IMG/VR virus record: IMGVR_UViG_3300026183_000792
Coordinates: 1 to 25,757 of that record
Reading direction: 5' to 3' (one strand)
From: a virus
DNA: 25,757 bases
The position numbers were made by a program, and so were the translations under genes. A model generated the notes under the pieces. That model saw only the letters and a list, made by a program, of their open reading frames with translations, was not told the origin of the DNA and did no database searches. Positions 11,059 through 25,565 of the stretch are shown here, one piece after another. How positions within the stretch are numbered: position 1 is the stretch's first letter; each line of letters begins with the position of its first letter.

Positions 11059-11352
11059 TTATCTTCGTCTCAGCGACTTGTTCATTGACGCTACTCGCTT
11101 AGATGCTGGATTAAATCTTTTAGTAAACTTAATTTTTCTAACTAATCTTGAACCAAGTCGTGCCTTCATTTTTTTCATTGTCATACGTTTTTTGATATCC
11201 AATGGTGCACTGCACACACCCGGATTTGACACGATTCTTCCTTTTTTACGTCCAAAAGTACAACGATACTTTTTGACCACTTGTTTGCCTTTACGGCCAT
11301 AAATCATTTTTGCTTCATCAATATTGCTGTTAAATATGTCTGATATAAGCAT
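11059..11352 (-). CDS. Small basic Cys-x15-Cys protein, downstream paralogue (B)
   Basis: A 97-residue, very basic protein (start MLISDIF). It is a clear paralogue of the gene at 12401-12706. Both begin MLI, share RC-x2-G-x-KKG/RKG-RIV-x2-P-x2-C-x-AP with the cysteines exactly 15 residues apart, then a KKR-rich helix and a (Y/F)NPxSKxV motif, and both end in Arg/Lys. The ATG at 11352 overlaps the stop of the radical SAM gene by one base (TAATG), a sign of coupled translation; a longer in-frame start at 11388 would intrude on that gene. The charge suggests nucleic-acid binding or virion packaging. Being a substrate of the radical SAM enzyme is an alternative. Function unknown. Confidence 0.75.
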   Translation of the reverse strand: MLISDIFNSNIDEAKMIYGRKGKQVVKKYRCTFGRKKGRIVSNPGVCSAPLDIKKRMTMKKMKARLGSRLVRKIKFTKRFNPASKRVASMNKSLRRR

Positions 11353-12401
11353 TATACTATTCCACACCTTTTTTGACAGATATCCCATGGGTTTGAATCT
11401 AATGATTCAGGTAAAGTCTTTGTAAACCAAGGATCTGTCATTATATTATCCAAAGACCGTTTATATAAACTATTTATTCTTGTAATTGATTTATCAATAT
11501 CAGGGTGCCCATTACGAGTTTCAGTTTCAGCAATATGACAACATGGCCAAATATTACCCCAGCAATCCATTTGTATTATAGATCTTTTTAACCAAGGACA
11601 TTTAGATTTATTAATAGAATTTGTAATAAATTTTTTTTGAGAAGCTTTTATATAACTATTATTATCATCAAACCATATAATTTTATCGCTTACCGGACCA
11701 GGCAGTACGGCATCTGGAGTTGGAGGTGCAAACCACTCAGCATTTTCTGGTATTTTTCTATTTTTTTCAGCATAAATTGTAAAATTTTGATCTTTTGCAT
11801 TAACTTCCGTTTGGCCATACCGACTAGGTCTAAGTAAAATACCAGCACATCCCAATGAGCGTGCCATATCAATAAGTTCATTAATCTGATGCTGATTATG
11901 AGCAAATAATATAGTAAACATTTGTGCTATACCCCCTGCTTCAATAAAAGTTTTCATATTTTTAATTACTTTATTAAAGTCAGTATTGCGTCTATATATT
12001 GAATGAGTATCTTCTAACCCATCTACAGCAAACTGTACATTATGAAAAAAATCACTGTCATTTAAAACAGAAGCTAACTCTTGCCACCATTCTGAACTAC
12101 GAGAACTTCCGTTTGTTGATATTCGAATTACTGATTCAGGATAATTTTTTTTAAAAATTTTAATGATGTCAATAAGGTTAGGATGCATAATTGGTTCACC
12201 ATAGTTACCATTGAATAATATTTTTTTAATTTGAAACTTGTTTTTAATATCAGTTAAAAAATTATCCCAAAATTTTAAATCCAAGTGATGTAATTTTAAC
12301 CAAGATACTGTTTCACCACCATTATTATTTCTAGCACATCCAGGGCATTTGGCATTGCAATGACTAGTTACATCTAGATGAATTTCTTCAACTGTTTGCA
12401 C
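11352..12401 (-). CDS. Radical SAM protein with SPASM-like C-terminal cysteines
   Basis: A 349-residue radical SAM enzyme. Cys15-x3-Cys19-x2-Cys22 (HCNAKCPGCARN) binds the SAM-cleaving 4Fe-4S cluster. FNGNYGEPIMHP (63-74) is the GGE-type SAM-binding motif, and IRISTNGS (92-99) is a family strand. Six C-terminal cysteines (268, 280, 287, 288, 342, 346) fit a SPASM or twitch-like auxiliary cluster domain, common in peptide- and protein-modifying enzymes. The start is a GTG that overlaps the stop of the upstream basic protein (TAGTG), and its stop overlaps the start of the downstream paralogue (TAATG). The substrate is unknown: the flanking basic proteins are candidates, while a sugar or small-molecule role remains possible. 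Assembly would need host or SufE-aided Fe-S supply (inference). Confidence 0.9.
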   Translation of the reverse strand: MQTVEEIHLDVTSHCNAKCPGCARNNNGGETVSWLKLHHLDLKFWDNFLTDIKNKFQIKKILFNGNYGEPIMHPNLIDIIKIFKKNYPESVIRISTNGSSRSSEWWQELASVLNDSDFFHNVQFAVDGLEDTHSIYRRNTDFNKVIKNMKTFIEAGGIAQMFTILFAHNQHQINELIDMARSLGCAGILLRPSRYGQTEVNAKDQNFTIYAEKNRKIPENAEWFAPPTPDAVLPGPVSDKIIWFDDNNSYIKASQKKFITNSINKSKCPWLKRSIIQMDCWGNIWPCCHIAETETRNGHPDIDKSITRINSLYKRSLDNIMTDPWFTKTLPESLDSNPWDICQKRCGIV

Positions 12402-12706
12402 TACTTTTTTCCGGATTTTTTGAAAGTGGGTTTACTTCTTTTAATCTGTCTATTTAAGTTTTTAACAACTTTAGATGTTGGATTGTATTTTTTTGTATAG
12501 GTAGATCTTTTACCTTGTATTGTAGATAATTTTCTTCTAGTTGCTTTGAACTGCTGTCGTTTTCTTAGATTGATTGGTGCTGTACAAGTTGAAGGATCTG
12601 CTACAATTCTTCCTTTACGAGGACCTGCTTGGCAACGAAATCTTCGTTTGATACTGGATTTGTATTTTCCATATATTTGAGGTGTACCTATTTCAGCAAT
12701 CAGCAT
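12401..12706 (-). CDS. Small basic Cys-x15-Cys protein, upstream paralogue (A)
   Basis: A 101-residue, strongly basic protein, paralogous to the gene at 11059-11352. Shared features are the MLI start, FRCQAGPRKGRIV with the first Cys, PSTCTAP with the second Cys 15 residues later, a Lys/Arg-rich helix, KKYNPTSKVVKNLN, and a basic tail ending KKSGKK. It lies one base after the stop of the coiled-coil membrane protein gene, and its stop overlaps the GTG of the radical SAM gene. Two late-type promoters about 310 and 330 bp upstream may drive the set, suggesting virion or late function. It resembles small basic proteins seen in other marine T4-like phages (from memory). No function is assigned. 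Confidence 0.75.
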   Translation of the reverse strand: MLIAEIGTPQIYGKYKSSIKRRFRCQAGPRKGRIVADPSTCTAPINLRKRQQFKATRRKLSTIQGKRSTYTKKYNPTSKVVKNLNRQIKRSKPTFKKSGKK

Positions 12707-15525: not shown

Positions 15526-16935
15526 TTATTCGTCGCTGAATAATTCACTTTGTGATTTCAATAAATCTCTTAAATTTTTTGCATTTTCTGTACGTTCTGC
15601 CACAACAACATTTTCAGTTTTGTTAGTTGACACTGTTGAAGTTCTTTTCTTAATTGCTGACGTTAAAGCATCTGCTGTTGTTATTGCCGCTTGATTTACT
15701 TCAGCATCTTCATCTAAATCTGTAATTCTTAATGTATCAATATCAAATCCTAAATCAATTTTTGATCCTATACCGCCTGAACTTCTAGTTTTCATCAATT
15801 GAATTTGATACCTTCCACGCTCACGCATTGCTCTACTTGTAAAAATACCAATAACATTGTCAGCAGTATTAATTTTACTAATACCTCCTGCAATATGACT
15901 TTGGTCAAATTCTACTTCTTCAATAGCACCTCTGTTAAGTTGCGATGCAGTAACCAAAACAAACTGATTTTCAACTGCAAAATTACGTAACTCTTCTGAT
16001 ACAAATTTATCTTTTAAAAACATGTCTGCTGGTGATATCTTTTTACTAATTGGCATCATAAGATCTAAATAGTCAATTAATACAACATCGGGTGCTACTC
16101 CTTTTTGTATTTGATATTCTTTCAAATATGATCTCAAATCATTAGTGCTTGACCCACTGCTCATATATTTCAGTTGAAACTTACCAGATTTTTTGCTCTG
16201 CATTCTGACTTCTAAATCAACATCATCAATCTTTTTAAAAATTTCATTGCTTGGTACTTCTGTTGTCATAGAATCAATTCTCATTGAACTTAATTCTTCA
16301 CTCAACTCAAATGTAAAATACAACACATTCATTTTTTGTGATATCCAGTTGAGTGCTAAATTCTGTAAAAACAAACTTTTACCAGCACCAGATGATCCTG
16401 CAAAGATGTTTAATTCACCTTTGTTAAATCCACCATACAATTTTTTATCTAATGCTTTCCAGCCTGTACTAATTGTACCATTGTTATCTTTCAAAGATAA
16501 TAATCTTGCTTTGGGATTTTCAAAATAATCTGTTCCAAGATCTTTTGTCAATCCAACTCTGACTGCATTTTTAATTTTTTCTTCAACTGGACCGTAGTCT
16601 CCTTTTTCTAACATGTCAGCACTTTCAATAATGGCTTTTTCAAGTGCTTTGTGTCTACAAAAAGTTTCAAACTCATCTAAGAACCAATCTTTCTGTGATT
16701 CATCAATGTCTGGTACCAGTTTTAAATCAATTTCACATTTTGCTTTGACTTGATCTACTGTGGGTAATGATTTATACTTTTCAGTGTACTCAACAAACAT
16801 TGCTGTTGTTTCAACATATTTTTTACTAAAGTATTCAGGTTGAATAATATTACGCACCCTGACAAATAATTCAGGATCTGTGACCATAAATTCTAAAAAT
16901 AATTTCTGTAAATCGTCTGTGTATACTGTTGCCAT
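15526..16935 (-). CDS. 41: Replicative DNA helicase, gp41/DnaB family
   Basis: A 469-residue replicative helicase that unwinds the lagging-strand template together with the gp61 primase. The N-terminal domain (1-140) is all-helical. The RecA-like motor has Walker A GSSGAGKS (180-187), a Glu after strand 2 (YFTFELSEE), Walker B VVLIDYLDLM (284-293), a sensor segment LVTASQLNRGA and the late motif QIQLMKTRSS. The C-terminal tail (about 410-469) is charged and likely disordered. The length is near T4 gp41 (475). It is transcribed after thyX with a 17-bp gap. No strong ribosome-binding site is visible before the ATG. Confidence 0.95.
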   Translation of the reverse strand: MATVYTDDLQKLFLEFMVTDPELFVRVRNIIQPEYFSKKYVETTAMFVEYTEKYKSLPTVDQVKAKCEIDLKLVPDIDESQKDWFLDEFETFCRHKALEKAIIESADMLEKGDYGPVEEKIKNAVRVGLTKDLGTDYFENPKARLLSLKDNNGTISTGWKALDKKLYGGFNKGELNIFAGSSGAGKSLFLQNLALNWISQKMNVLYFTFELSEELSSMRIDSMTTEVPSNEIFKKIDDVDLEVRMQSKKSGKFQLKYMSSGSSTNDLRSYLKEYQIQKGVAPDVVLIDYLDLMMPISKKISPADMFLKDKFVSEELRNFAVENQFVLVTASQLNRGAIEEVEFDQSHIAGGISKINTADNVIGIFTSRAMRERGRYQIQLMKTRSSGGIGSKIDLGFDIDTLRITDLDEDAEVNQAAITTADALTSAIKKRTSTVSTNKTENVVVAERTENAKNLRDLLKSQSELFSDE

Positions 16936-18450: not shown

Positions 18451-19446
18451 TTAATTAACTCCTATTTTTTTTAAAACTTGAATTTTTGCATTGTTATTTG
18501 TAGCAGATTTAATAATAGTTTGTAAAGTATATAATCTACCATATTTTTGTACTGCTTCTGCTGTGTCTTTGACACCAGATTCCCATTCTGGATAACTAAC
18601 TTTCCAGTTATTTTCTGTTGCTATGTCTACTAAATTACCACCAGATTTATCACGATCAGGACAAACTATAACTTGAGATTTAACACTGTTAATTAAATCA
18701 ATTTGTGCCTGTGTAAGTTTGTTACCCAATGATGATACTCCATTAATTGCTAGTGCATCTAATACACCTTCAACTATCACTGTGTAAACTCTGTCTTCAA
18801 ACAGTTTATCAACATTATACAAATAATTTGGTTGCACAGATGAATAATATTTTGGTACATTTTCAACATCTTTAATAAGTCTTCCTGTGTAACCAACAAT
18901 TTTACCATTGTAATAAAAAGGAACCAAAAGTCTTTGACTAATTTTCATATAAGGATCCGAAGACCAATAAAAATTTTTATGAAAGTCTAAACCTCTATCC
19001 ATTATATATTTGTAAACAAACACAGCATCATTTGGTGGATTAGATTGCTTTATAACTTGTTCTATTGGCATAGCATCATTTGGCAATTTGATTTCTTTAA
19101 AATCTAGTGTCCATTTTGATAAGCCACCGGTTTGTGAATCATTACTTTGTTCTTTGATTGCTTGAAATTGTAACTCTTTGATTTTCTGTTCTGGTACACC
19201 AATTGCCAACATAAGTTCTCGCATTCTTTTGTTTATTAGTCTACCTTTTGTAAAAGATGATTTGAAATTACAGTTGAAACAATGATAACTGATTACTTCA
19301 CCAACTTTAAATCCACCACGCATTCTGGTATCATTTCTTACATGACCTTGTGTGGTACACATTGGACAGTTTACTGCTATCCAGCCTGATGGAGTCTTTT
19401 TAGACTTAGAACTAATATGCGATAAAATTACTGTTTGTATATCCAT
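18451..19446 (-). CDS. 61: DNA primase, gp61 type
   Basis: A 331-residue primase that makes RNA primers for lagging-strand synthesis with the gp41 helicase. The N-terminal zinc-binding domain has Cys27-x2-Cys30 (NCPMC) and Cys56-x2-Cys59 (HCFNCN). The Toprim catalytic core has VEGVLDALAINGV (225-237; Glu226, Asp230) and CPDRDKSG (262-269; Asp264, Asp266), which bind the catalytic metals. The length matches T4 gp61 (342). A sigma-70-like promoter (19456-19484) ends very close to the ATG, so the leader may be only a few bases. clpP follows at once. Confidence 0.94.
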   Translation of the reverse strand: MDIQTVILSHISSKSKKTPSGWIAVNCPMCTTQGHVRNDTRMRGGFKVGEVISYHCFNCNFKSSFTKGRLINKRMRELMLAIGVPEQKIKELQFQAIKEQSNDSQTGGLSKWTLDFKEIKLPNDAMPIEQVIKQSNPPNDAVFVYKYIMDRGLDFHKNFYWSSDPYMKISQRLLVPFYYNGKIVGYTGRLIKDVENVPKYYSSVQPNYLYNVDKLFEDRVYTVIVEGVLDALAINGVSSLGNKLTQAQIDLINSVKSQVIVCPDRDKSGGNLVDIATENNWKVSYPEWESGVKDTAEAVQKYGRLYTLQTIIKSATNNNAKIQVLKKIGVN

Positions 19447-21249: not shown

Positions 21250-21257
21250 TATTTATT
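21250..21257 (-). promoter_or_regulatory. Possible T4 late-type promoter between divergent genes
   Basis: The minus strand reads AATAAATAC, close to the late consensus, ending 5 bases before the ATG at 21244. Transcription would start at or next to the start codon. It occupies most of the 20-bp gap between two divergent genes. Confidence 0.45.
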
Positions 21258-21264
21258 GAAAAAC

Positions 21265-21636
21265 ATGGATTACACAGAACTAAAAACAAAGTTTCCTTTT
21301 TTATCGTGTGTTAAACACGTAAATGACGAGTTTGTCGGCATACTGCTCAATCAAGATCAGTTTGTCACATCAATCTATGTGTATGATGATATTTCTTCAA
21401 TAAAATTAAAACAAAAATTCTTGTCACTTGGCGAAGAATGGTGGTGGGAATCTAACCGAACTATACCAATTAACATATTTTTTAACAGAGATTTTGAAAT
21501 ATTTAAAAAATACATCAAAAGTTTTACTACAAAAGATGTGGAAATTGTGTTTGGTCCTGCTACAAGCCTAAACAATGTGCAGAAGAAACGTATAATTAGA
21601 AGAAATATTTCGCTAGTTAAAAAAACAAATAGTTAA
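21265..21636 (+). CDS. Conserved phage protein, the only plus-strand gene
   Basis: A 123-residue protein and the single plus-strand gene in this window. It is real by composition and conservation: a Trp-rich core GEEWWWESNRTIPINIFF, preceded by FVGILLNQDQFVTSIYVYDD and followed by KSFTTKDVEIVFGP and a basic tail (KKRIIRRNISLVKK). I recall the EEWWWESNR type as conserved in marine T4-like phages and without a known role. The start chosen is the ATG at 21265; a TTG nine bases upstream is possible. There is no clear Shine-Dalgarno site. Its promoter must lie inside the divergent structural gene. The stop is only 2 bp from the stop of the convergent DnaE-like gene. The basic tail suggests nucleic-acid contact (inference). 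Confidence 0.8.
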   Translation: MDYTELKTKFPFLSCVKHVNDEFVGILLNQDQFVTSIYVYDDISSIKLKQKFLSLGEEWWWESNRTIPINIFFNRDFEIFKKYIKSFTTKDVEIVFGPATSLNNVQKKRIIRRNISLVKKTNS

Positions 21637-21638
21637 AA

Positions 21639-22220
21639 TTACTGTTGTAATTGTTCACAAATTAAATTCATTTGTACCACAATAGCATGAGCATACGCAA
21701 TAGCATGTGCCTTTTTAAAATAGTATGCACCGTCTGTAGGCTTTGTCCATACTTCTTGCATGATTTTATTCCAATCACAATCAAGAAGATATCTTTTTGA
21801 CGGTCTTATTATTGCTAGAACTGCCGCTAACTGTTCTATTGTTGTGGGTTTTAATTTTTGTAATATTTGGCTGTGTTCGCCTACATGAAACAAGTTTTCT
21901 GCGAATTCTTTGTGACCAAGTAGATCCCATAATGGCTCCTTATTTAACAAACTGTCTAAATGCTGTTCATCTTTGATATCTTTGTACAATGAAACATTTA
22001 AAATATCAAACTTAACATATCCTCTTTCTTCAGCATTTTCATAATCTATTGTTGCCAAATCTGTAAGTGGATTTGTAGGAATATCAGTGAAATAAACACC
22101 AGTGTTGTGCTTTTTAAACTCATTATTATTACAAATACTTGCCACATTGTATTTGAATAAACTTAAAAGTTTATCTCTGTCGCCTGTATCTATATCAATG
22201 TCAGTCTGTACTTTTATCAT
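21639..22220 (-). CDS. Miniature DnaE-like protein with polymerase III alpha palm motifs
   Basis: A 193-residue protein that compresses the core of bacterial DNA polymerase III alpha. In DnaE order it has TDIDIDTGDRDKLL (6-19; Asp9 and Asp11 at the places of the catalytic Asp401/Asp403), HNTGVYFTDIPTNPLTD (38-54), YVKFDILNV (68-76; Asp72 at the place of the third catalytic Asp555), FAENLFHVGEHSQILQKLKP, TIEQLAAVLAIIRPSKRYL (127-145, like the 'RPGP' region), and FKKAHAIAYAHAIVVQMN (168-185, like FNKSHAaAYA..AYQT). PHP, beta-clamp and OB domains are absent; DnaE is about 1,160 residues. I chose the ATG at 22220, inside the preceding gene. Polymerase activity is unproven; it could be a regulator, a decoy or an end-filling enzyme. 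Confidence 0.85.
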   Translation of the reverse strand: MIKVQTDIDIDTGDRDKLLSLFKYNVASICNNNEFKKHNTGVYFTDIPTNPLTDLATIDYENAEERGYVKFDILNVSLYKDIKDEQHLDSLLNKEPLWDLLGHKEFAENLFHVGEHSQILQKLKPTTIEQLAAVLAIIRPSKRYLLDCDWNKIMQEVWTKPTDGAYYFKKAHAIAYAHAIVVQMNLICEQLQQ

Positions 22221-22473
22221 TGTTTCTTCTATATTCTTCAAATTGATTTTTTAATGCACCCAAATACATTTCAAGTTGTTTAACTCTAGTATCTAAATTA
22301 TTATAATTGTCTATAACACTTTGTATATTTTCTAAATTTTTTGCAAACAGTTCTTTTTCAGTTAATTGTGCCAAAACTTTCAACTGTAACCATTGTTTCT
22401 TTAAAGACTTGTTTTCAGTTTCAGACAATGCTAAACCCATAACTACATCTTCTAAAAAATCATCAGTTTTCAT
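22201..22473 (-). CDS. Small coiled-coil protein
   Basis: A 90-residue helical protein with heptad-like spacing: ETENKSLKKQWLQLKVLAQL (18-37) and VKQLEMYLGALKNQFEEYRR (64-83). It is likely dimeric or oligomeric. No enzymatic motif is seen. Its ATG overlaps the zinc-finger gene stop by 4 bp (ATGA), and its 3' end overlaps the start of the mini-DnaE gene by 20 bp, so the three are probably coupled. An accessory role for the DnaE-like protein is possible (inference). Confidence 0.7.
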   Translation of the reverse strand: MKTDDFLEDVVMGLALSETENKSLKKQWLQLKVLAQLTEKELFAKNLENIQSVIDNYNNLDTRVKQLEMYLGALKNQFEEYRRNNDKSTD

Positions 22474-23147
22474 ATGTTTGCCTTTTTTACAATTTCATGT
22501 ACAAAACTTACGTCATCTTGACTTTTCTTAAATCTACTTGCCCAAGCCGCCGGATCAATATAATCTTCAATCATTAATGTTTCTTGTTGATTTAATGACT
22601 GTAAAAAACTTATTCCAGTTTTACTGTTGTACAACAACCATGGTGATATTTGTCCAGACCTGATCATGTGAATACATCTTGATTTAGAAACTTTTTCAAA
22701 GAAAACATTCCACGGCATACTGTTAGACTCTCCCCAACCTTTCATTGATAGCACAGTTCTTTCAACTGCTCGTTCCACAGATTCTCTCACAGCAAACTCT
22801 TTAATATATTGCTCATACACAACATCACTTGGCCACCTATCTACTTTAACTCTATTTTTAAGTAACCATTCAATGTAATCTTCTACAGATGCCACATACA
22901 CATCAACTAGATAATTAGCAAACTTTACAAATGCTGTGTAATATTTGCTAGCCATAAAATCATCGTATGTTCTTTCAGTTTTCATAGCAGTTGATGTGAT
23001 CCTCCAAAAATGCTGATAACAACGAAATGCCAATTGTACGTTTCTGTCTTTACGATTGTTCCAACGTCTTTTTGGTTCACAAAGATGAGTAATTAGTGTT
23101 TTTTCAGAACTAAATGACTTTTTACAAAACTTACATTCAAATGACAT
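22470..23147 (-). CDS. Zinc-finger-like conserved phage protein
   Basis: A 225-residue protein. The N-terminus carries Cys5-x2-Cys8-x12-His21-x-Cys23 (ECKFCKKSF...THLCE), a C2H2-like finger whose last ligand is Cys. It leads into a basic stretch (EPKRRWNNRKDRN) that could contact nucleic acid. The remainder is helical with many Trp/Tyr/Phe (NVQLAFRCYQHFWRIT, DVYVASVEDYIEWLL, ESVERAVERTVLSMKGWGES). I recall similar proteins in marine T4-like phages near uvsW, with function unknown. It starts 2 bases after the stop of the upstream gene and overlaps the coiled-coil gene by 4 bp. Confidence 0.75.
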   Translation of the reverse strand: MSFECKFCKKSFSSEKTLITHLCEPKRRWNNRKDRNVQLAFRCYQHFWRITSTAMKTERTYDDFMASKYYTAFVKFANYLVDVYVASVEDYIEWLLKNRVKVDRWPSDVVYEQYIKEFAVRESVERAVERTVLSMKGWGESNSMPWNVFFEKVSKSRCIHMIRSGQISPWLLYNSKTGISFLQSLNQQETLMIEDYIDPAAWASRFKKSQDDVSFVHEIVKKANI

Positions 23148-23617: not shown

Positions 23618-24117
23618 TATAAAAAATCTCCCACTTGTATTTCATCAGGTATTTGATTAATATCTTTTGCAAAATAAACACAAGCAGGTGTTTTTCCTTC
23701 ATCAAGTGGAACTGCTAATATGTGTCCATGTTTAAGTTTTGGTAAGTACCATTTGACATCTTGAAAAACATTAATGATTTTAATTTCTTCTGATTGTATC
23801 ATGTAATCTGTTAACGGATTTGATACCAATGCATGAAAGCCTCTATCATTTAAACTAGTCAACGGAACCATTTCACAAATACCTAATTCTCTTTCTATAA
23901 TCATAATGCTCCAATCAATTGGCATCTGTACTGTTTTCTTTCCAATTTCTAATATCATGCTTGGCGCACTAAATGATTCCAAAAAGATTAATGGAATAAA
24001 AAAGAAATCAATATTGTTTTTGTTTGTGGTATCAAGTACACAATATTGCAAATCATCTACAAGTTCTGGTACTTTGTTCAAGTTATAACTTTTATTTTCT
24101 GTTGTTAAAATTTTCAT
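23617..24117 (-). CDS. Conserved hypothetical protein following uvsW
   Basis: A 166-residue protein rich in strands and hydrophobic turns: FFFIPLIFLESFSAPSMIL (38-56), MPIDWSIMIIERELGICEMV (64-83), LTSLNDRGFHALVSNPLTD and VKWYLPKLKHGHILAVPLDE. It looks globular and cytoplasmic rather than membrane-bound. The pattern is familiar from marine T4-like phages, always unassigned as far as I recall. The ATG overlaps the uvsW stop by 4 bp (ATGA), and its stop overlaps the next ATG by one base, so it is tightly coupled to uvsW. A part in recombination-dependent replication is inferred from position alone. Confidence 0.7.
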   Translation of the reverse strand: MKILTTENKSYNLNKVPELVDDLQYCVLDTTNKNNIDFFFIPLIFLESFSAPSMILEIGKKTVQMPIDWSIMIIERELGICEMVPLTSLNDRGFHALVSNPLTDYMIQSEEIKIINVFQDVKWYLPKLKHGHILAVPLDEGKTPACVYFAKDINQIPDEIQVGDFL

Positions 24118-25565
24118 ATATTCACCTTATTAATAGTATACGGATAATTTGCCTCTTTGTAAAACTTTTTTCTTGCCGTCAAGTGTCTTTTTGAAAATTT
24201 ACAATTTGAAGTTATATCCCATATTTGTACATGATCCTTGTCTTTGGCTTTTCTAATACCTCTTCCAATACTTTGTATTACTCTAACAAAACTTTTTCCG
24301 GGTTCTAGTAAAACCAAATTAAATATTCTTGGTATATTGATACCCACTGCCGCAATTCCGTAAGTTGCAATTAAAACTTTGTGTTGCTCAGTAGCAATTT
24401 CGCTATACTCTTCTTCTCTGTCTTCTGTTTTTGTTTTTCCTTGGACAAAGACCGATCCAGGAATTAATTCTTGTAGTAATTCTCCTGATTTGATTCTGTC
24501 AATCAAAATCAAAGTGTTTCCACCATCACGTATTTCTTCAATCAAGTTACTTAAAAATTTTAATCTTTCTAAATTTGTTGTCAAATATGCAAGTTCTTCC
24601 TGATAAGTTCTAAACGAATTAGCATCTTGTGTTTGTATAACATTCACATGACAGTTTGCAAGTACACCTTTGCTTTGTAATTCACTTGCTGATAATTGGC
24701 TTATAACTGTACCTAGTGAACAAATCAAACTCATTTTTTCATAATCTTCTTTTGGCACCGTGCCTGTTAATCCCCATCTAATTGGAATGTGTGCAAAAGG
24801 TCCAGTTAATAAAGATTTTAATACATCAGCCTTTGCCATGTGTACTTCGTCAACTATAATACAATTAACATCTTTTATGAATTCTTCAATAGGAAATTCT
24901 GCTTCATCTTTTTTTGTATTTTTATTTAAAATATTTAAACTTTGCCATGTGCAAATTGTGTGTTTGTGTCCTAGTTCTTTTCTTTCACCAAAATAAACAC
25001 CAACATCTAATCCTACATTTTTATAATCTTCTTCTGTTTGTGTAACAAGTGATTTGTTTGGTACTACTACAATTGATCTACCATAATTTTCACAAATTTT
25101 TGAAAGTGCCGCAGTGATAATTGTTTTACCAGCACCAGTGGCTATTTCTTGTAAACTTTGTGGATTACTGATAAAATCATTAATAACTTTAACTTGATAA
25201 TCTCTTAATACAATTGGCTGTCCTTCATGTGTATGACCTTTAGGCCAATTGATGTGTGAAAAAAAACTGTCAGTAACTTCTTCAAATGAAAAATCAAAAC
25301 TTTGTCTATGATCTTGTATCTGTATTTCATATCCATTGTTTTCAATAATTGGCAAAATTTGATCTAGCAAATTCAAATATGTTCTTCCGCCAATGTCACA
25401 AAAACGTATGTTACCATCCCATCTGCCTAACTTGTAAGCAGGCAAGTGAAATGCATATGGCACAAAAAATTTAAGTTTGTCAGAAATTTTACGTCTTGTT
25501 GAAACGTCAAGACCTTCAAACTTTACATTAACTTCATCTTTGATTATTAATGTTGCTTTAGCCAT
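24114..25565 (-). CDS. uvsW: UvsW-type DEVH helicase
   Basis: A 483-residue superfamily 2 helicase. In T4, UvsW unwinds R-loops and branched DNA and drives the switch from origin- to recombination-dependent replication. The motifs are in order: a Q-like segment LRDYQVKVINDF (120-131), Walker A ATGAGKT (142-148), VVVPNKSLVTQ (167-177), the DEVH box (239-242), GLTGT (near 265), and motif VI SIGRGIRKAKDK (near 436-447). The N-terminal 110 residues fit the small UvsW DNA-binding domain (WDGNIRFCDIGGRTYL). The length is near T4 UvsW (503). The ATG lies inside the end of the upstream gene, and the stop overlaps the next gene by 4 bp. Confidence 0.95.
   Translation of the reverse strand: MAKATLIIKDEVNVKFEGLDVSTRRKISDKLKFFVPYAFHLPAYKLGRWDGNIRFCDIGGRTYLNLLDQILPIIENNGYEIQIQDHRQSFDFSFEEVTDSFFSHINWPKGHTHEGQPIVLRDYQVKVINDFISNPQSLQEIATGAGKTIITAALSKICENYGRSIVVVPNKSLVTQTEEDYKNVGLDVGVYFGERKELGHKHTICTWQSLNILNKNTKKDEAEFPIEEFIKDVNCIIVDEVHMAKADVLKSLLTGPFAHIPIRWGLTGTVPKEDYEKMSLICSLGTVISQLSASELQSKGVLANCHVNVIQTQDANSFRTYQEELAYLTTNLERLKFLSNLIEEIRDGGNTLILIDRIKSGELLQELIPGSVFVQGKTKTEDREEEYSEIATEQHKVLIATYGIAAVGINIPRIFNLVLLEPGKSFVRVIQSIGRGIRKAKDKDHVQIWDITSNCKFSKRHLTARKKFYKEANYPYTINKVNI

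Follow-up and report, generated by a model that had tools for sequence, protein, structure and literature searches.

The gene at positions 21639–22220 (minus strand) of the window, the 25,757-nucleotide stretch of IMG/VR record IMGVR_UViG_3300026183_000792 analysed here, encodes a protein that is probably the C-terminal half of a family C DNA polymerase core split over two genes, comprising the metal-binding palm strands and shortened fingers. The original prediction regarded a family C protein beside a family B polymerase as unexpected, but this arrangement had already been described: a split minimal Pol III alpha alongside a family B enzyme was reported for group 2.2 jumbo phages, with the proposal that it might help the synthesis of one strand, or repair (Iyer et al. 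2021, PMC7824862). A 172-aa 'truncated' alpha-subunit homologue was noted in the phage CBB paper in 2017, a predicted alpha subunit was mentioned in the Atu_ph07 paper in 2018, and in a 2022 survey half of one cluster of marine jumbo phages had PF07733. The split enzyme has thus been known since 2021, and the window protein is a further example. As in the group 2.2 system (PHROGs 11778 and 11127), an N-terminal NTP-binding protein and a C-terminal metal- and template-binding protein are encoded by distant genes, with a family B polymerase beside them; the difference is that the window phage is an uncultured 25.8-kb fragment, for which the N-terminal half and the family B gene are known from relatives. 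We found no experimental test of the split enzyme in the open-access papers searched, most subscription journals lying outside the scope of that search.

The open reading frame starts with ATG, comprises 193 codons plus a stop, and is preceded by a purine-rich, ribosome-binding-like stretch. Its assignment to the C-terminal half of split minimal Pol III alpha rests on profile matches, conservation and fold. PHROG family 11778 ('DNA polymerase') matches the protein with E=1.8e-68, residues 3–190 of 193 aligning with positions 4–194 of 197, and there is an independent match to phrog_405, a family of full-length phage DnaE proteins (E=1.6e-8). A phmmer search of the PDB with the single sequence gave nothing useful, but a search with the family profile did. 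The family profile scored 34.9 against E. coli DnaE; none of 60 shuffled sequences scored above 25.1, and the reversed DnaE scored 14.6. Judged by these scores, the family C resemblance is not due to chance. The Pfam DnaE finger domain matches only weakly, below the cut-off, so that ordinary annotation would call the protein hypothetical, as most GenBank records do. Relatives are encoded in at least 260 IMG/VR stretches and in 63 cultured-phage records. Comparison with its closest variants gives 6 and 15 synonymous changes as against 3 and 8 that are non-synonymous, the numbers of sites being 112 and 467, and the gene looks to be under purifying selection.

All the family C motifs named in the original prediction are present, in the DnaE order: D7/D9/D11, H38, K70-D72, R139-P140 and K169-H172-Y176. 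Thinning at 85% identity left 51 homologues, in which these residues are invariant or nearly so; D7, D9, D11, H38, K70, D72, R139, P140, H172 and Y176 each occur in 51 of 51. DIDID (residues 7–11; 22188–22202, minus strand, as are all the motifs) has its counterpart in the sequence MPDIDIDFADR, with which most relatives start and which is the same as the DnaE motif. HNTG (residues 38–41; 22098–22109), in which H38 and G41 are invariant, is the counterpart of HAGG at position 511 of E. coli DnaE, and KFD (residues 70–72; 22005–22013) follows. IRPSK (residues 138–142; 21795–21809), with I138, R139, P140 and K142 conserved in 51 of 51, corresponds to FRPGP (E. coli 638–642), where the fingers start, in keeping with the weak Pfam finger match. 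KKAHAIAYA (residues 169–177; 21690–21716) corresponds to NKSHSAAYA, from E. coli position 757 on.

In the E. coli register, D7 and D9 are D401 and D403, D11 is D405, K70 is K553 and D72 is D555, the catalytic aspartates of E. coli DnaE being those named in PMC3919608; this register is given by HMMER and HHalign sequence and profile alignments together with end-to-end structural ranges, not by three-dimensional superposition of single residues. The three catalytic aspartates that had been claimed are therefore present, with one correction: they are the first two of DIDID (D7 and D9) and D72, whereas D11 is an extra conserved residue. The call for conservation of these aspartates in homologues is answered by the same alignment, D7, D9 and D72 each being found in all 51.

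The AlphaFold2 model of the protein, built from a 41-row alignment, has a pLDDT of 88.8. When this model was compared with the PDB using Foldseek, as had been suggested, the top 15 matches were all Pol III alpha, DnaE or PolC chains. Whole-length structural alignment with VIA-align placed residues 4–193 of the model on E. coli DnaE 399–781 (Z 8.9), and residues 1–193 on Taq DnaE 457–838 and PolC 967–1296 (Z 9.6 for each), whereas the best non-polymerase chain reached Z 3.7; the predicted fold is thus that of a family C palm and fingers. These Z values are moderate, which we counted against the split-core explanation. The protein shares the palm/fingers fold, motif order and catalytic residues with bacterial DnaE and PolC (E. 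coli DnaE, Taq 3e0d, G. kaustophilus PolC 3f2b), but it is one-sixth the length of DnaE, is split in two, has a shortened palm insert and shortened fingers, and lacks the PHP, thumb, HhH, beta-binding and OB domains. It spans only the equivalents of E. coli 399–781, and within that range the counterparts of fingers 643–751 (including RRAMGKK, 709–715) and of about 100 palm residues (413–510) are gone.

The GRGS/GS phosphate-binding motif is not in the 193-residue chain, in which DIDID starts already at residue 7; it sits in another family, phrog_11127. Searching ten large relatives with PF07733 revealed a separate second gene of about 170–185 codons in all ten. The minimal family C palm/fingers protein originally proposed has a genuine palm/fingers fold, but it is not supported as a polymerase on its own, the GRGS-bearing half of the palm being encoded by a separate gene in each of these relatives. 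The N-terminal halves cover PF07733 positions from about 13 to 99 and then stop, and the DIDID of the window family corresponds to positions from about 97 on. They end in ...GRGSSVASYxLYLIGxHxxDSxxYxLDxxEFLK, at a point where E. coli DnaE goes on with ...FLNPERVSMPDFDVDF, and GRGS is present in 74 of 74. On E. coli DnaE, HHalign places the N-terminal half at 319–396 and the window family from 398; VIA-align places the model of the N-terminal half (pLDDT 88.4) on E. coli DnaE 278–398 (Z 9.4) and on 5lew 307–418 (Z 10.2). Sequence and structure therefore agree on one shared cut point at DnaE 398/399, and by these alignments and models the two halves appear complementary, as though a single gene had been severed at this position. 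About 78 further residues at the N-terminus of the N-terminal half have no DnaE match. In the loci examined for the window family and for the N-terminal half, no single open reading frame matched both half-profiles, and the N-terminal half was absent from the plasmid collection. Variants of the N-terminal half with a different tail (LPIEEFFK) occur at loci L131, L132, L147 and L156; they score best against the single-chain polymerase described below and are possibly a separate lineage.

Among the matches listed on each side, 59 of 60 cultured jumbo-phage records agree in carrying both halves; one exception is a 109-kb record, and the other may be among three further records with the C-terminal half. 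Phages with the pair include RaK2 (NC_019526), Paride (OR805295) and Sharanji, the last recorded on E. coli K-12 MG1655. The N-terminal half adjoins the gp44 clamp-loader gene, lying just upstream of it, and in 20 records tested a strong gp44 match was obtained exactly where the N-terminal half is present. Records without that half look like fragments, because they also lack gp44 and, where tested, polB. Among nine N-half contigs of 200–462 kb, the window family is present in six, and the three without it are 202–229 kb long. The distance between the halves, in record coordinates, ranges from 14 kb (phage RAS14) to 224 kb (Phosso) in the ten large relatives. As a sign of interaction, a distance correlation between the two halves over ten genomes (r=0.71) is not discriminating, since shared ancestry could produce as much. 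In 10 of 10 large relatives with both halves a family B polymerase is encoded, which bears out the original prediction that phages of this type carry one; none was found in the window fragment. Neither the 25.8-kb window nor a 41.5-kb contig with an identical copy of the polymerase-half gene contains the N-terminal half, which for this phage is therefore predicted. Of 28 contigs bearing the polymerase-half gene in which it was sought, just two had it, the ones that extend into the gp44 region; two other matches in this set proved to be the separate single-chain polymerase.

Nearly all relatives share the gene order uvsW, phrog_11279, phrog_11758, phrog_11058, a small gene, the polymerase half, phrog_11637 (on the opposite strand), a 275-aa protein, primase and DnaB. 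In the window, the conserved neighbours include a UvsW-type helicase (24114–25565, minus strand), a primase (18451–19446, minus) and a DnaB-like replicative helicase (15526–16935, minus), the last two downstream of the polymerase half. The small gene (22201–22473, minus) encodes a 90-residue probable coiled coil and overlaps the start of the polymerase half; similar small genes are found there in relatives. The constant upstream neighbour phrog_11058 (22470–23147, minus) is a C2H2 zinc-finger protein with conserved C5, C8, H21 and C23. It had been suspected, from the sequence RSGQISPWLL, of being the missing N-terminal half, but its profile is unrelated to that of DnaE (HHalign probability 0.3%); nor did profile comparison relate phrog_11758, phrog_11279, phrog_11637 or the 275-aa protein to DnaE. 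The convergent neighbour phrog_11637 (21256–21636, plus strand), a lone opposite-strand gene beside the polymerase half, has a conserved WWxESNR motif.

From the observed homology, fold, residue conservation, complementarity of the halves, co-occurrence and synteny, we infer an assembly, a catalytic activity and a biological role. Since the two proteins together rebuild the palm with all the metal- and phosphate-binding residues, we favour a nucleotidyltransferase that is assembled in trans. The phrog_11127 protein, expected elsewhere in the genome of this phage, would contribute the initial portion of the palm with its nucleotide-binding loop, GRGSS, and the two subunits would assemble into one Pol-beta-like nucleotidyltransferase site. 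In such a site D7, D9 and D72 would hold two metal ions, with K70 close by, and GRGSS would grip the phosphates of the incoming nucleotide. Because the fingers (643–751), the palm segment (413–510), the thumb, the PHP domain and the clamp-binding parts are absent, we expect very low processivity, and the enzyme is likely to be an accessory one. Without the thumb, PHP, HhH, OB and clamp-binding domains, few nucleotides would be added per event. The split enzyme would act alongside the family B replicase, its sites of action probably being generated by the products of the adjacent primase/helicase or recombination genes. From the synteny with primase, DnaB helicase and UvsW, the likeliest role would be that of a short-range accessory polymerase, and primer extension, gap filling or repair are likely tasks, the link to primase and helicase coming from gene order. 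More specifically, but only tentatively, the in-trans family C site, of about 170 plus 190 residues, may be a dedicated short-range polymerase beside the T4-like family B replicase, for example one extending primers at the primase-helicase. If it works, this two-protein enzyme, which has no thumb, PHP or clamp-binding domain of its own, would to our knowledge be smaller than any other of family C.

The loss of the fingers and palm segments also means that polymerase activity may be weak or lost, and the split pair might instead be a non-catalytic relic whose fold is kept as a scaffold, or as a DNA- or nucleotide-binding accessory of the T4-like replisome. The disappearance of the E. coli 643–751 fingers, the 413–510 palm segment, the thumb, the PHP domain and the clamp-binding regions would fit such a history, as would the family B polymerase of the relatives; we nevertheless consider it unlikely, because all metal- and phosphate-binding residues are invariant in both families, which scaffolds rarely need, and because the gene is under apparent purifying selection. 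It is very improbable that the 193-residue protein suffices by itself as a minimal family C polymerase: it does contain the three catalytic aspartates and the KFD, RP and KKAHA motifs, but the GRGS loop and the first palm segment lie outside it, in a second protein that co-occurs with it and stops at the point where it starts. Its shortness relative to DnaE and the weak scores of bacterial DnaE models might suggest that a bacterial dnaE was captured and is decaying, the gene being a pseudogene remnant of it. Length, boundaries and synteny are the same in dozens of divergent phages, however, and there is an excess of synonymous changes; this reading is already contradicted by conservation and has almost no probability left. 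The core split over two genes, which we prefer to these alternatives, yields a prediction that can be tested directly, since the boundary at DnaE 398/399 is clean and the key residues are invariant. If the halves form a working enzyme, they would define the minimum for family C catalysis, which bears on the origin of bacterial replicases, and would reveal a phage replisome that mixes archaeo-eukaryotic-type and bacterial-type polymerases.

Some marine contigs encode a different family C polymerase, a single chain of about 550 residues without a PHP domain, for example at L187:7995–9623 and L209:7839–9641, and also at L216, L244 and other loci between L185 and L263. It carries the motifs TRGSAGSS, DLPDVDIDF, KHCGG, LKVDIL and RRAFAKK and a C-terminal extension. 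These phrog_405-like enzymes share the family C palm with the window protein, their TRGS, DxDxD and K-V-D motifs included, but they differ in being one chain, in having full fingers (RRAFAKK) and the C-terminal extension, and in being encoded by a gene separate from the window family. Two of the contigs that encode them (144 and 155 kb) yielded neither a family A nor a family B polymerase. The window family was present in 11 of 11 such contigs tested, the C-terminal half being kept in these marine phages despite the more complete single-chain family C enzyme.

Elsewhere in the window, the protein encoded at 11352–12401 contains a CxxxCxxC motif (HCNAKCPGCARN) and resembles a radical SAM enzyme. 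It is flanked by two small basic proteins (11059–11388 and 12401–12706) with similar stretches, KKYRCTFGRKKGRIVSNPGVC and KRRFRCQAGPRKGRIVADPSTC, and these two proteins look like paralogues of each other.
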